Made by a program: the position numbers and the translations under genes | Shown here: piece by piece, positions 5,167 to 20,227 of the stretch | Layout: every line of letters begins with the position of its first letter | Numbering within the stretch: position 1 is the first letter of the stretch | The notes under the pieces: generated by a model | What the model saw: the letters and a program-made list of their open reading frames with translations, nothing else | Databases searched by the model: none | Told to the model about the DNA's origin: nothing | IMG/VR virus record: IMGVR_UViG_3300030109_002139 | Span: 7,599 to 30,771 of that record | Origin: a virus | Strand: one strand, 5' to 3' | DNA length: 23,173 nucleotides

Positions 5167-8100
5167 TTAATCAAATGTTTTGTCAAGAGTCCTGCCTAGC
5201 TCTTGCATTGAATCTCTCCACCAGTAAAACCTAGATATGCCAGTAGCACTTAAAATATCTTTCATTCCTTTTCCTGTATCACCAGTAGCAAATTCTTGTA
5301 AAGCTAAGAAATAATCTTGTGCAACAGAAGGAGCAGAACCAGTAATACCTACTAAAGCACCTACTTGTGTGTCCTGAAACTTAGGATTAATAAAACCAAG
5401 TCCAATATCAGGACCACCTAAAGCATTAATAGTATGCATAGAAGTATAATAAATATCTGAGTACAATGCCGCCATTCCAGATTGGTCAAACCCCCTCATA
5501 AACCTATCTTCATAGTCCATTTTATCCCATGCCCATTCTGGAGTTTTCATTTTAACAGCAAAATAACCCAATCCTATATACATCATTGCTGTTAATGCCC
5601 TGTTCTTTGCATGACCAGAAGCATAAGCAACAGTTATTTTATTTAATGCGGCAAATGCATATGTATAGAATTGAAAGGGTGCAGAAAGAATACCACTTTC
5701 CATACGAGAATAACCTTTAACTTTTGCATCTTCCTTATATCCCCAATTTTTAGCAATACTATGTTTTACATAAACTCTACCATCCATCATAATAGGCTTA
5801 TCAGCAGGAGTAGACATCATAATAGTGTTCATTATGCCACCTGATAACGCACCTCCGTATCTTTCTTTTGCTGTTTCATTAGTCCATTCAGACACATCAG
5901 CATATCTGGTGCCATTTCTTCCCATTTTATGTGGACTATCTGCAATTAATTTTGCTGTATCTGCATCAATATCATACTTTGCAAGCCAAGATATTTCCAT
6001 TGGTTTAGCAGTACCATCTTTAACTTTTAATGCGTAATCAATTATTGTATGGCCTCTTGCCATAGAATCCCACCATTTAAGTATATGCGTAATTGGACCC
6101 AATCCATTACCCATAAAAAATAAATGTTGTGCTTTATCCCAGAAACTAGGGTTTAACATATTAGGTCTATCTGAACCTGATTCAATTCTCATATGAGCCT
6201 GACCCATTGAAATTTCACCCATTTCACCCATAATCTGAGCATCTTTCTTAGATGTATTTCTAGCAAATGAATCATCCATAAAGTCTAATAAACTATTTCT
6301 TATAGTTTTTAATTCATGGTTAAGAAATAAAGCACCAACTTCTGTAATTGCCGCAAGTCCTGCCTGACCCAAATAACTAAATCGTGCCGCAATTTTAAGA
6401 GCATTAAAAGTAACAAAAGACATTTTATCTGGGCTATCTATTACTCTGCCTACAACTCTTTCATACATTACAGACATATTCATAACAGCTTCATTAATTT
6501 CATCTTGTGAATTTCCATTAATAACCATGCGGTCTGTAATTTCATTTATAAAATCTTCTTGACTTGTATACCCAAACTTACGTTTCATTTCGTACATAGG
6601 CATAGTTCTATGAGCATATGCTGTAGCAACTGCTTGCATATCTGTAACAATAAAATCTCTTACTAATTCATTTGGAATATCTATTTTTCTGTGACGCATA
6701 TGTTTAGAAACATTAGCACCAAAAAAACCTTCATCAAAATCCATAACATCTTTCATGTCCATAATTTCTTTATAAACATCTTTTGCTCGTTGTTTAGACT
6801 CATCAACAGTTAGTAGTTTTTCTGTTACATCTCTGTTTTTACCCTTAAAATAAACATATTTTTTACCTATATAATACTGCTCTAGTATTTTAATAAATCT
6901 ATCTTTGTTTCTTTTGATAGCTTCTCTATCCCAGTATCTAGGAAAAAAGTTTTCTAACGCACCTTTTGTTTCTCGTACTACTTTTATTTCATTATCTAAA
7001 TTCTTAACTCTTCTATTTAAATCAGGTAGTCTTTGTTTAGTAAAATATGTTCGTGTATTTTTTTTCAATGACACACGAATAAATTTGTTTTGCTTTTCAT
7101 TAAAAACAAGAACACCATTTTCTAACATATCTTCTATTCTAGCTATATCAGATTTAATTATATCTTGCTTTGCTTGCAGTGGAGTTGAGTCTCCTATAAG
7201 ACCTTCATTAACTAATTTAGCTTCTTGTCTTTGAAAATGTTTTTTAATTAATTCTACAGCACTTTTTTCTCCTGCTGTTAAATCATCTGTATTATTAATA
7301 ATATAATGATTTGTCATTCTTTTAGAAAAATCAGAAAAGGTTTCATCTGCTTTATTAAAGCCACCTTTATTTCCTGTGTAATTTTTTACTGTTTTTTTAA
7401 TTGTAAGTATAGCATCTGATGTTTGATAGTCAGATATTTGCAATCTATCTTTTCTCCAAATATCAAGCATATCTCTTTTTAAAGCAATAACTTCACCAAC
7501 ATGTTGACCTTTAGCAATAAAAACAGAACCACCTAAAGCTCTTCCTGCCATTTGAAATGTGTAAGCCATACCATAATCATTAGCTAATTTAAGAGACATT
7601 TCTTTTACAGAGTTAGGTATAACTTTACTAGAAATTATTGTTTTCATAGGTGTAGGAATAGATTTATAAGCCCATTTTAAAACACCATCAGTAAACATAT
7701 TAGAAACATAATTAACATCAAACTCATATTTTTCTTTTAATCTTAATCTTTGTTCTATTTCTAATTTTTGTATCTTATCTTGAAATTCAGAAATTCGTGT
7801 ATTGTTTGCTTGAATTTGATTGCTTAATTTTCTTTCAGACATTCGTATTGCATTATTAAAATCTATAGTATGATTACCTGTTAATGGAATTTTATTTCCT
7901 TTTGCATCTGTTTGCGCCATAAACCTGTTGCCTTCAAATAAAGGTTTTAAATGCTCACGATTTTCCATTCTCATAAATTGTTTTTTGCCATTTACATCTA
8001 TAAAACGAACACCAATATCATTAAATTCTTTATCACCTCTCCATGCATTTGCTTCTAAAACTTTGCCTTTCATTTCATAAACTTTTTTTACTAAAGGTAA

Positions 8101-16291: not shown

Positions 16292-17104
16292 TTAATTATT
16301 ATCAAGGACTTCATAGATGCCAGCGTCATCAATAACGACAGCACCCATTGACATCATTGATGTTGCTAGGTGAGATACCTTCTCAGGTACATAGTTAAGT
16401 TCAGTTGATACGTCAGCACCAATACCTAGACCAACAGCAGAACTATGATAAGCCATGTTCTTTCCTGCGGTTACAGCAGATGTTGAGAAGAATTTAAAAC
16501 TTAAAAATTCTTTCATAGTCATACCACCTGCATATGGTAGGCTTGCATCACCAACATAATCAGCACTTGCAAATTCGTTTATAGCAAACAAATCAGCAAA
16601 TCCTTTTGGATTCATTGCACAAAACCTATTGCCATCTTCAGGCATATCAGCAACACCAACAGTTTCAAACAATGATAATACGTCAGCTTTTTCAAGAGCA
16701 GAACTTGTATCATGTATTTGAGTTGAGCTAGCACCTGCATCCATAGCGGTAATAAGTAGCTCGTCAGTCTTACGACCAAGAGCCGCCGCCGCAGATTGTG
16801 CTACAGCTTGACGTTCATTGATGTTAGTCTTTAGCTCGTCTAACTTATCAATGTACTCTGCGGCATAGTAGTCTGCCATTGTAGCTTCTGCTGTGGTATG
16901 TACTAATTCCATTGGTGTTACGTTACCATTTCTTGACTTGGTAGACGCACTTCCTTTAGCAATTTTTTGAAAGCGAACAACGCTTCCTGCAACATTACCA
17001 ACAGTTCTGACAGTATTACGCAATTTAGACCCCATTCTTTGGTAAGCCATATGCACATCTGATTCAAACTGCTTGATAAATGCTGTGTCAATACTATTAG
17101 CCAT
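16292..17104 (-). CDS. Major capsid protein, 270 aa
   Basis: The sequence fits the compact HK97-fold capsid proteins of marine podoviruses: an N-terminal helix (FIKQFESDVHMAYQRMGSKL), a basic strand region (VVRFQKIAKGSASTKSRNG), the E-loop-like segment ending TMADYYAAEYIDKLDELK, the long spine helix with AVAQSAAAALGRKTDELLITAM, and FCAMNPKGFADLF in the P-domain. At 270 residues it is short for the fold but normal for this group. It follows the scaffold and gp13-like genes. AAGGAGATATAC before the ATG is nearly the same as the T7 gene 10 ribosome site, consistent with being the most abundant product. Confidence 0.9.
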   Translation of the reverse strand: MANSIDTAFIKQFESDVHMAYQRMGSKLRNTVRTVGNVAGSVVRFQKIAKGSASTKSRNGNVTPMELVHTTAEATMADYYAAEYIDKLDELKTNINERQAVAQSAAAALGRKTDELLITAMDAGASSTQIHDTSSALEKADVLSLFETVGVADMPEDGNRFCAMNPKGFADLFAINEFASADYVGDASLPYAGGMTMKEFLSFKFFSTSAVTAGKNMAYHSSAVGLGIGADVSTELNYVPEKVSHLATSMMSMGAVVIDDAGIYEVLDNN

Positions 17105-17193: not shown

Positions 17194-17739
17194 TCAATGG
17201 TAAATAGGCTGTGACATTTTATTATAAGACATACTTTTATCTATATTGCAACGAAAAAACTGTAAAAATGTATGCTTGTTGTGTAAATATGTTTTATTTA
17301 CATCAAAATAAAAGCCACACCATGATAACCAACGTATAGTTTTTAAGTTATCTTGAGGAACAAAATTAAAAATTACCTTGTAATTTCCTTGCAACAAATC
17401 AATTACATCAGGACATTTTCTTAAAAATGTTCTGTAGTGTTTATACAAATCATCTGTAGCAAGAAACCAAACTTTGCCAATATCTACATTAACAGGAGTA
17501 ACACCCATTATAGCAATAGGTTTTTCGTAATCTAATAGAGTAAAAACTCTACCTTCTGACTCTATAAAGCTATCAAATATAGCGTCATTAGGTGCAAAAT
17601 CATACAGCTTACACTCATGCTCATCTTCTTTTCTTAGATTGTTAGCAATATGAGGTATGTCGTCAGGTATACTTTCAACTAAAAAAAGGTTTCCACTTTT
17701 ATTTAGAATTGTTCTAGCCGTATAAAGTTCTGAATCCAT
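17194..17739 (-). CDS. GNAT-like virion protein resembling T7 gp13 (DUF2833 type), 181 aa
   Basis: Residues about 60-145 read like the acetyltransferase-fold protein family that includes T7 internal protein A: RVFTLLDYEKPIAIMGVTPV, GKVWFLATDDLYKHYRTFLR, and FNFVPQDNLKTIRWLSWCGF, where an Asn followed by I-R-W-L-x-W-x-G-F is the usual GNAT ending. Whether the protein has acetyltransferase activity is unknown; I do not see a clear acetyl-CoA-binding R/Q-x-x-G-x-(G/A) loop. T7 gp13 is needed for virion assembly. The gene overlaps the scaffold end by 26 nt and precedes the capsid gene, so it is displaced relative to T7, where gene 13 follows gene 12. Confidence 0.75.
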   Translation of the reverse strand: MDSELYTARTILNKSGNLFLVESIPDDIPHIANNLRKEDEHECKLYDFAPNDAIFDSFIESEGRVFTLLDYEKPIAIMGVTPVNVDIGKVWFLATDDLYKHYRTFLRKCPDVIDLLQGNYKVIFNFVPQDNLKTIRWLSWCGFYFDVNKTYLHNKHTFLQFFRCNIDKSMSYNKMSQPIYH

Positions 17740-18427
17740 CTTCTACTTCTTTGATAAAAGCAGGTTCCTGTTTTGTAGGATTGTAATAACGAGGGTCTTT
17801 CATTTTAGCTTGCAAATCTTCAAGTGTAAGTTTACCTGCCGTTTCCCCATTACCCATAGGTATAGAATCTTCTTTTTGTTGTGACATAACATACTCAAGA
17901 ACCTTAATGCCATCAGCAGTAACACCAAGATTAGCAACAGAATCATGCAATTCTTTAGGAAAATACTTTGCAGAAAATAAACCAACAGCATCTACTCTTT
18001 CTTTGTGGTTTTCGCCTAACTTTGCTTGTTCTTCTTCTTCAGAAGGAAGCATAGACTCTATAGCTTCTGCATATATTTTTATGCCTTCTTCAAATTGTTC
18101 CTGACTATACCCATTTTCAAAAGCCTGACCTGCCCACCATTGGAGAAGGTTGTTGTCTACCGCTTCCGTTTCGTTGATTTCTTTGGGGAGTTTGTAGTCA
18201 CCACTTTTTTCTGGGCGGTTTTCGTAACGCTTGGCTTCGGCTTCTGCCAAAACCTGCTCACGAATGTCTTTATCCTTTTGGCCCATCTTAGACTCAAGGC
18301 TTTCATACGATTTAACAAGGTCTTCTCCTGTCTTAAATTTCTCTGGCAACCATTCTGGTCGTGTTACTTCTGATGTTTCACGTGAAACATTTTCTTCTAC
18401 AGTTTCTTGTATAGTTTCTTCTGCCAT
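17714..18427 (-). CDS. Capsid assembly scaffolding protein, 237 aa
   Basis: A highly acidic, helical protein between connector and capsid genes, the standard scaffold position. The motif PEWLPEKFKTGEDLVKSYESLESKMG (residues about 24-49) is typical of T7-like scaffolds. The middle is Glu-rich with LLQWWAGQAFENGYSQEQFEEG, and the C-terminal region (FIKEVEDGFRTLYG) is a likely capsid-interacting tail. The first 20 residues are an acidic, probably disordered tail. Codons 13-18 of this tail contain a perfect parS palindrome. The start shares TAATG with the upstream stop and has AAAGGA seven bases before it. Scaffolds guide procapsid assembly with the connector and leave before DNA packaging. Confidence 0.88.
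   Translation of the reverse strand: MAEETIQETVEENVSRETSEVTRPEWLPEKFKTGEDLVKSYESLESKMGQKDKDIREQVLAEAEAKRYENRPEKSGDYKLPKEINETEAVDNNLLQWWAGQAFENGYSQEQFEEGIKIYAEAIESMLPSEEEEQAKLGENHKERVDAVGLFSAKYFPKELHDSVANLGVTADGIKVLEYVMSQQKEDSIPMGNGETAGKLTLEDLQAKMKDPRYYNPTKQEPAFIKEVEDGFRTLYG
18374..18389. promoter_or_regulatory. parS: Perfect parS (chromosomal ParB-binding) sequence
   Basis: The 16 bases TGTTTCACGTGAAACA equal the widely conserved bacterial chromosomal parS palindrome, and the symmetry extends to 18 bp (ATGTTTCACGTGAAACAT, 18373-18390). It lies inside the scaffold gene at codons for Val-Ser-Arg-Glu-Thr. No ParA or ParB gene is in the window, so the obvious ligand is host ParB. A chance match to this one 16-mer in 23 kb is expected about one time in 100,000 at roughly 36% GC. 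Confidence 0.75.
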
Positions 18428-18687
18428 TATTTATTCCTTTCATGTTGAACAAGTCTACGCTCTATTAAACCTACAATATATCTTTGACCTTCTGCATGAC
18501 GCAATACATCATTACTTACTGCACTGCCATGCACTGCTTCTATTGTTATACTGCGTAAATATTTAAGTACTGCATTTCCTAAAGGTGAAGAAAATAAAGA
18601 ATGAACATTAGAATTAATTTCTTTTTCTGTTGCTTCTATTCTTGGGTATCCATCAACACCAATATTAGTCTGTTTACTCTGCGGCAA
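18427..18687 (-). CDS. Small hypothetical protein with TTG start, 86 aa
   Basis: The frame has no ATG or GTG near its beginning. A TTG at 18687-18685 is preceded by AAGGAG with a nine-base spacer, so TTG is the probable start (first residues PQSKQTNIGVDGYPRIEATEKE after the initiator). It overlaps the connector end by 14 nt and shares TAATG with the scaffold start. The protein is soluble with a helical C-terminal half rich in Arg and His (HAEGQRYIVGLIERRLVQHERNK). I do not recognise the family for certain; small proteins between connector and scaffold are common in marine podoviruses and their function is unknown to me. Confidence 0.75.
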   Translation of the reverse strand: MPQSKQTNIGVDGYPRIEATEKEINSNVHSLFSSPLGNAVLKYLRSITIEAVHGSAVSNDVLRHAEGQRYIVGLIERRLVQHERNK

Positions 18688-20227
18688 TCTGCTGTTCTCC
18701 TTGCATTTGGGCCATCTGCTGTTGCATCTGTTGCATCTGTTGAATTTGCTGAATCATCTGGTCACGCTCTATCTTATCCCTAACCAAGTTATCTGGTACA
18801 CCAAACTTCTTAGCAAGGTAGGCGGCTGATTCTTCAGAGTTAATTAAGATATTCAACATTTCAGGGCCAAATGTACCCCCTACAGTTTGCAGGAATCTAG
18901 CCATTGATGAAATATCTTGGTTTGCCTGTGCCTGAGAGAGTGGAGAAACAGAACGTATTTTAACCTGTCTGCCATTTACAGTAGGCAACTCAATACGATT
19001 TTGTTTCTTTAGTATGTATACTACTCTTTGTAGTACTGGTTGTACTAATTCTGCCTGCAATCTTCCAAATGCAGAACCAATGCGTCTTGATAAGTCAGCC
19101 ATACGCTCTGCTATTTCAGTAGCAGTAGCAGGAGTTCTATCTGGATTACCAAGCATGTCATTATACAAGGCTCTCTTAATATTTAACCTCATATCTGAAA
19201 GAATTAAGTTAGCAACGTCAAAAGAACCTGCGGCTCTTATAGGTTGTAACCCCATAGAGTTAGGTGCTTTAGGTATAACAGTTCCAGGAACTAGAGATAT
19301 AGTATCTGGGTTTACAATGCCATCATCATCCATCTGATATATACCTGATATAGCCATCTGTGCGTTTTCAAGTATAAGTTCAATGGTAAGATTAGTAGTT
19401 TTAATAGCACTTAATGCGTTGATTAACGGACCTCTTCCATAAACTTCCCCTGCACATTTAGACCAACGAAAACATATAAAAGGATTAGAACCAAGACCAG
19501 AAAAAGTATCCATCTTAATACAACTTTTAGTTGTTGTGTCTATAACATAAAGTAAAAACACATCTTCATTAATTCTTGAGTAATCTCTGCATACTACTTC
19601 TAGTATTTTTGTTTTCTTATCAGGGGATGATTCTGTATATCTTATTAAATCTTCTGAAAACTTGCCATCAGGGTAAAGAATAGGCAAATCTTCAAACCTT
19701 ACTTTTCTTTCTCTGTATACATGGTCTATCTTATCATCAGGCCCAGTGTCTAAAACCACATGAGGTAAAGGAATAGCAGAGAAAACAACAGGATTAATAG
19801 CATCACCTTCTTGTACATGAAGTACTCCTGTACCCACAGCCAAATCCATAAAACTTTCGTGAACCTCTTGTCCAAAATTAGAGTTCTGAATAACCTCAAA
19901 AACATATTCTGTAACTTCATCAAGGTCGTTATTAACACTATCTCTTTCCTCCTTTGGAACTTCACTACCTGCGGTAAAATCTGCCCATCTTGCAAAGTTG
20001 GGAACTAAACCAGACTGTAATCTTGACGCAAATTCCTGTACACCCACAACAGCAGTCTCATCAAATATCTTATCATCTCTTCTTTCACCTGCTGATTCAG
20101 TGTAAAACGATTCTCTTTGTGGTAAAGCATATTCATAGCACTCTTCAAACAAATCTTCAAAATGTTGCCTGTGTGCTTTTGCTCTTTCATACTTTCCAAG
20201 ATATTGTTGTGCTACTTTGTCATCCAT
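18674..20227 (-). CDS. Head-tail connector (portal) protein, podovirus type, 517 aa
   Basis: The sequence matches the T7-like connector family: an N-terminal RAKAHRQHFEDLFEECYEYALPQRESFY, DETAVVGVQEFASRLQSGLVPNFARWADF, the wing region with PHVVLDTGPDDKIDHVYRERK, FICFRWSKCAGEVYGRGPLINALSAIKTTN, and the RTPATATEIAERMADLSRRIGSAFGRLQAELVQPVLQRV core. The 517-residue length agrees with T7 gp8 (536). The last 30 residues are Gln/Met-rich (I-Q-Q-I-Q-Q-M-Q-Q-M) from a 9-bp repeat, a common connector barrel end. It forms the dodecameric ring through which TerL pumps DNA. It begins three bases after the small MCLGG gene with only a weak ribosome site. Confidence 0.93.
   Translation of the reverse strand: MDDKVAQQYLGKYERAKAHRQHFEDLFEECYEYALPQRESFYTESAGERRDDKIFDETAVVGVQEFASRLQSGLVPNFARWADFTAGSEVPKEERDSVNNDLDEVTEYVFEVIQNSNFGQEVHESFMDLAVGTGVLHVQEGDAINPVVFSAIPLPHVVLDTGPDDKIDHVYRERKVRFEDLPILYPDGKFSEDLIRYTESSPDKKTKILEVVCRDYSRINEDVFLLYVIDTTTKSCIKMDTFSGLGSNPFICFRWSKCAGEVYGRGPLINALSAIKTTNLTIELILENAQMAISGIYQMDDDGIVNPDTISLVPGTVIPKAPNSMGLQPIRAAGSFDVANLILSDMRLNIKRALYNDMLGNPDRTPATATEIAERMADLSRRIGSAFGRLQAELVQPVLQRVVYILKKQNRIELPTVNGRQVKIRSVSPLSQAQANQDISSMARFLQTVGGTFGPEMLNILINSEESAAYLAKKFGVPDNLVRDKIERDQMIQQIQQMQQMQQQMAQMQGEQQIAAE
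18713..18742 (-). repeat. 9-bp coding repeat, Gln/Met-rich connector tail
   Basis: On the coding strand the unit CAACAGATG recurs with small variants, giving the Q-Q-M series at the C terminus of the connector. The repeat is short and in frame, so unit gain or loss would only change tail length. Confidence 0.55.

Follow-up and report, generated by a model that had tools for sequence, protein, structure and literature searches.

What does the centromere site of a bacterial chromosome do inside the capsid scaffolding gene of a marine phage? The window, by which we mean the whole stretch of 23,173 nucleotides analysed here (positions 7,599 to 30,771 of IMG/VR record IMGVR_UViG_3300030109_002139), contains the exact parS 16-mer TGTTTCACGTGAAACA at 18374-18389, enclosed in a perfect 18-bp palindrome (ATGTTTCACGTGAAACAT, 18373-18390), and the site covers codons 13-18 (N-V-S-R-E-T) of a minus-strand ORF at 17714-18427. 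Exact match, palindrome and codon placement had all been claimed in the original prediction and are confirmed, and its estimate of about 1 in 100,000 for a chance match agrees with a hand calculation from about 36% GC. The site is the single match in the window even when 3 mismatches are allowed, a threshold at which dinucleotide-shuffled sequences have 0.15 matches on average, and the whole 30,771-bp record holds TGTTTCACGTGAAACA in one exact copy. Judged from its place between the portal and major capsid genes and from its homology to marine podophage scaffolding proteins, the ORF is the scaffold gene. The features of the window to which we refer below are as follows.

16292-17104, minus strand: major capsid protein gene (PHROG 3437), the downstream border of the segment discussed below and the parS-independent probe for relatives
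17194-17739, minus strand: internal virion protein-like gene (PHROG 308), whose homologue holds parS at its 3' end in some relatives
17714-18427, minus strand: capsid scaffolding protein of 237 aa with an acidic N-terminal tail that includes the parS-encoded NVSRET, assigned by homology to annotated scaffolds and by position (PHROG 3742, unknown function)
18373-18390: 18-bp perfect palindrome, from the sequence
18374-18389: parS 16-mer, a sequence match conserved in relatives
18427-18687, minus strand: conserved gene of 86 aa, flanked by portal and scaffold; its L040-clade counterpart is preceded by the noncoding gap that holds parS there
18674-20227, minus strand: portal (head-tail adaptor) gene (PHROG 332), the upstream border of the segment with most of the family's parS sites

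Recurrence and turnover of parS among related phages

Exact parS is kept in four of the five IMG/VR relatives found through the scaffold (68-81% amino acid identity), the contig of the fifth, L126, being without the N-terminus. In gene content, the best characterised relative is Pelagibacter phage EXVC031P Hodr (amino acid identity of 64% for the terminase and 52% for the capsid), which has TGTTTCAAATGAAACA at the same place in a scaffold of 35% identity. L040 (37% scaffold identity) is without the peptide and carries exact parS in the noncoding stretch that follows the portal gene. Because circularity was to be avoided, an unbiased set of relatives was fetched by capsid protein in three scans, without reference to parS, yielding 238 loci (2.56 Mb) on contigs that are incomplete and from phages that are not independent of one another. 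Within the 1.7-kb segment in front of the capsid gene, these loci hold 16 exact parS sites and 43 at no more than one mismatch, compared with a mean of 0 and 0.0024 (maximum 0 and 1), respectively, for 839 control palindromes of the same composition, generated by permuting the half-site. Outside the segment, three sites were found at no more than one mismatch. Chance occurrence, in favour of which there is nothing beyond the single site per genome, is ruled out by these controls, and its probability is negligible also in view of IMG/VR as a whole, where parS has exact matches in at least 120 stretches and two control palindromes are limited to 5 and 11 contigs. No TGTTTCANNTGAAACA at one mismatch or fewer was found in cultured podophages from outside the family that infect SAR11, Roseobacter, Methylophilales and Vibrio (HTVC010P and kin, Autographiviridae).

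The sites occupy at least four positions within the segment, given here relative to the capsid start.

About -1260 to -1370: scaffold N-terminus, as in the window
-726: scaffold C-terminus (L204, L206, L211, L212)
-115: 3' end of the gene after the scaffold (L350, L351, L369, L384)
-1640: noncoding gap downstream of the portal gene (10 of the 10 covered members of the L040 clade)

Some sites lie still further away. The contig of L175 has a scaffold without parS and an exact site in a large internal virion gene, near residue 1018 of a 1260-aa frame (L252:1432), while that of L147 has no head-gene site and carries TGTTCCACGTGAAACA where a small early gene begins (MVMFHVKQ...), in the other open frame of parS (L253:4849). 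In addition, a parS with one mismatch, TGTTGCACGTGAAACA (DVARET), occurs at L190:7965 and L198:9188; the gene that holds it occupies the place of an internal virion gene, some 4.7 kb downstream from the start of the capsid gene.

Mapped onto a capsid tree with 202 rows, the presence and absence of parS requires a minimum of 15 changes, of which 10 are imposed by branches with strong support; these are counts of changes in which gain and loss are not distinguishable, and the presence labels behind them leave out by hand the 3-mismatch matches of L205, L340, L367 and L393 and one of the two L384 matches, and score L278 (TGTTCCACAAGAAACA at the scaffold position) as absent. That parS has been gained or lost repeatedly, at several places within the head genes, suggests a phage that borrows host ParB. 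The original prediction had anticipated both an enrichment of parS in related phages and its persistence elsewhere where the scaffold lacks it, as the L040 clade illustrates, and both were borne out. As a feature of the scaffold gene, parS stands in the window, but the family's sites are not scaffold-specific, and a site is present in the segment of 49 of the 197 loci in which it is covered (25%). Because about three quarters of the covered relatives are without one, parS is dispensable and any function conditional.

Selection on the DNA rather than the peptide

Every coding copy within the head segment is read in the VSRET frame, as it would be if the peptide N-V-S-R-E-T were the selected thing in the scaffold. 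The codons argue against this. Across 36 scaffold N-terminal sites, conserved residues share codons in 93-96% of cases inside the site and in 57-76% outside it, depending on divergence, and among scaffold pairs below 40% amino acid identity, codons are shared in 1365 of 1423 cases inside the site versus 59% outside. The arginine of the site is always CGT, a codon that makes up 15% of arginine codons elsewhere in these genes. Since these 36 sites were found by DNA similarity, a separate search by peptide was made. Every VS[RK][ED][TS] in the scaffold region was found to be GTTTCACGTGAAA followed by CA, CC or CG, or by GT in one serine variant; every VSRET in the family's scaffolds reads GTT TCA CGT GAA AC(A/C/G), and the pattern occurs with other codons in distant genes only.

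Where the peptide itself changes (VPRET, VSHET, VSQET, VSNET, VSRGT), it is still encoded by parS-like DNA. Near-fixed codons, together with peptide changes that leave parS-like DNA in place, therefore indicate selection on the DNA, conserved beyond coding need. In the L040 clade, moreover, the 10 aligned noncoding copies read TGTTYCAYRTGRAAYA, and the site is kept by two members with a deletion just upstream. These copies contradict selection on the peptide, as does the use of the other open frame (MFHVKH) in the early gene of a relative, and we consider it extremely unlikely. Across 54 sites, positions 2, 3, 4, 6, 7, 11, 13 and 14 are invariant, and variation is found at 1, 5, 8, 9, 10, 12, 15 and 16, mostly at 9, 12 and 1; the natural variants include the cores CACATG and CAAATG, and also TTCCACGTG.

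Host ParB as the probable reader

The original prediction that the window encodes no ParA or ParB was borne out, and the result extends to the family. Pfam searches found neither a ParB domain nor a tyrosine integrase in the record, and neither a ParB_N domain nor a tyrosine integrase in 15 family genomes including the complete Hodr (with host genomes as positive controls), and tblastn detected no similarity to ParA, ParB, RsmG or MnmG in 244 family loci and the window. A phage-encoded ParB in this set is thereby ruled out as the reader, and these phages have no self-contained ParABS with parA and parB in cis. Because the phage encodes no ParB, the candidate reader is the chromosomal ParB of the host.

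Capsid homologues among 84,980 prokaryotic genomes lie for the most part in prophages or MAG contigs of Alphaproteobacteria; the closest, at 81%, comes from a Rhodobacterales MAG contig. A record titled Mesoflavibacter (Bacteroidota), L229, has a prophage capsid of alphaproteobacterial type; the MAG name may be wrong. TGTTTCANNTGAAACA is present in 7 of 10 host genomes with capsid homologues and in 43 of 58 genomes sampled from that class, with a core that is nearly always CACGTG. A genome with an exact match to a putative SAR11 16S signature serves as a lead to SAR11. Within its family, 18 of 26 genomes have one CACGTG-core parS within 1 mismatch, and in the two genomes inspected the site lies in rsmG, directly upstream of parA and parB, where it encodes NVSRET at codons 16-21. 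Phage and SAR11-type host thus hold parS in the same NVSRET reading frame, and the phage variants AGTTTC-, TGTTCC- and -TGGAACA are also found in hosts. The same sequence therefore stands near parA-parB in plausible host chromosomes, which represent an inferred host group rather than the exact host. The ParB of G010, an alphaproteobacterial MAG with a phage of the family, aligns to the Caulobacter ParB of structures 6t1f and 7bm8.

Another DNA-binding protein, such as a phage repressor or a different host factor, might instead read the palindrome, and in the L040 clade its place downstream of a promoter-like sequence resembles that of an operator. Yet the sequence and its tolerated variants equal chromosomal parS, a rare motif that stands beside parA-parB in hosts, and sites inside genes at moving positions are ill suited to one operator, which makes such a reader very unlikely. 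Host ParB is very probably the reader, although the binding itself is inferred, and the original prediction, which had proposed both selection on the DNA and host ParB as its likely reader, is supported to this extent by the near-fixed VSRET codons and the enrichment in relatives. The one family relative with a known host is Hodr, which infects Pelagibacter. Its site may not bind ParB, because the core of TGTTTCAAATGAAACA differs from the CACGTG core of SAR11 chromosomes, and it may be a decayed site.

Possible functions of the phage parS

With moderate confidence, we read the 16-mer as a parS centromere that is under selection as DNA, would be recognised by host chromosomal ParB and would serve to position or partition the phage genome. 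After injection or replication, host ParB would nucleate at the single phage parS, close as a CTP clamp and spread over roughly 1-2 kb of the flanking head genes. The phage genome would thus become a client of host ParA, and perhaps of SMC, and be positioned on the nucleoid; should a slow-growing host divide while a long infection or a carrier state lasts, the daughters would share the phage genomes. Overall, this would amount to centromere piracy by a non-integrating phage. That partition or positioning is the main benefit is close to an even call, leaning slightly towards doubt, and partition alone does not account for the concentration of parS in the head genes.

This concentration, together with the promoter-like sequence upstream of the noncoding copies, favours late-gene control more than partition. 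Here, ParB loaded at a single parS would coat the portal-scaffold-capsid block and hinder its transcription at low phage copy number, until replication dilutes ParB and releases the genes. Most of the family's sites lie in the 1.7 kb of head genes. The noncoding parS of the L040 clade has a conserved promoter-like TTGACT...TATA (TTGACTTTYGGTAACAATTTTATA, L264:5605-5730) about 95 bp upstream and a gene start just after it, and it is kept in two members without the intervening stretch. Caulobacter ParB spreads at most ~2 kb from a single parS, as assayed in an E. coli host (PMC5815017), and plasmid ParB proteins can silence flanking genes (PMC7333895). However, reports of silencing mostly concern ParB in excess, a 16-mer may simply be tolerated in disordered scaffold tails and at gene ends, and the site of some relatives is found in a distant internal virion gene or in an early one. 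We regard such a timer as unlikely as the main function.

It is also possible, with about the same low probability, that parS acts as a decoy, the replicated phage copies with one site each titrating ParB from the single or few host sites and blocking chromosome segregation and division. With one CACGTG-core parS in most genomes of the SAR11 family, tens of phage copies would outnumber the host site. Against this, the family has one site per genome; titration would be better served by arrays, which are known from other viral contigs (L016, L043).

A further observation concerns lifestyle. Integrated prophage relatives (L219-L241) contain no parS. The Caulobacter chromosome tolerates an extra parS cluster only within a zone of ~500 kb (PMC5815017), which would explain why integrated relatives are without parS and non-integrating ones may keep it; the contrast is confounded by descent, because the parS-free integrated relatives also form a separate clade.

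parS in other viruses

Among 120 viral stretches with parS that were fetched from IMG/VR, 119 show no ParA, ParB, RsmG or MnmG over up to ~14 kb per contig with alphaproteobacterial queries, and gross host contamination is rejected within that scope. Exact parS sites in head genes of unrelated phages include the following, which are sampled cases.

L080:69-779: head maturation protease, parS near the N-terminus (codon 23)
L004:703-1392: protease, parS near the N-terminus (codon 23)
L114:12455-13291: head scaffold, parS near the N-terminus (codon 20)
L098:3-1010: portal gene, parS inside

As these contigs carry parS in head maturation protease, scaffold and portal genes, they lend support to a broader reading, in which the head genes of many non-integrating phages would hold a bare host centromere, with ParB acting both as a nucleoid tether and as a copy-number-dependent switch that frees those genes when replication has diluted ParB. 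As a general viral strategy, this is tentative and on balance rather improbable. Elsewhere in IMG/VR, five clustered exact copies that resemble centromere arrays occur at L016:2657-3444 and L043:10535-11462. Related primase genes of two other phages (L091:7359-10217 and L108:931-3801) both contain exact parS as PVSRET.

Significance and comparison with known systems

If ParB binds these sites, viruses in Alphaproteobacteria, perhaps SAR11 among them, make use of a core protein of bacterial mitosis, and the placement and inheritance of phage DNA in slow-growing marine bacteria becomes testable. The family would then offer a natural experiment, as dozens of its phages either have or lack the site and hold it at differing positions. 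In the open-access literature searched, the coverage of which is incomplete, we found no report of phages that lack ParA and ParB and carry a host chromosomal centromere, and no paper on phage Hodr.

The phage site has the same 16-bp palindrome with fixed GTT-CA arms as the parS of chromosomal ParABS systems (Spo0J/ParB class; Caulobacter, B. subtilis), and it resembles chromosomal parS also in its variation at positions 1, 5, 8, 9, 12 and 16 and in its VSRET frame, which is that of the host rsmG site. Unlike chromosomal parS, it stands without parA and parB, lies in head genes and moves between positions. Phage genomes with a centromere are known from phage-plasmids with their own ParABS, such as P1 and extrachromosomal mycobacterial prophages (PMC7157519), but whereas those encode their own partition proteins, the parS phages described here encode no ParB domain. 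The closest proven precedent is SGI1, which carries mimics of the parS of IncC plasmids and hijacks their ParABS (PMC10954446). Like SGI1, the phage is a parasite that has parS-like sites without a ParABS of its own and would use the partition system of another replicon. In SGI1, the target is a plasmid ParB and its use has been proven experimentally, whereas here the element is a phage and the presumed target is the chromosomal ParB of its host.
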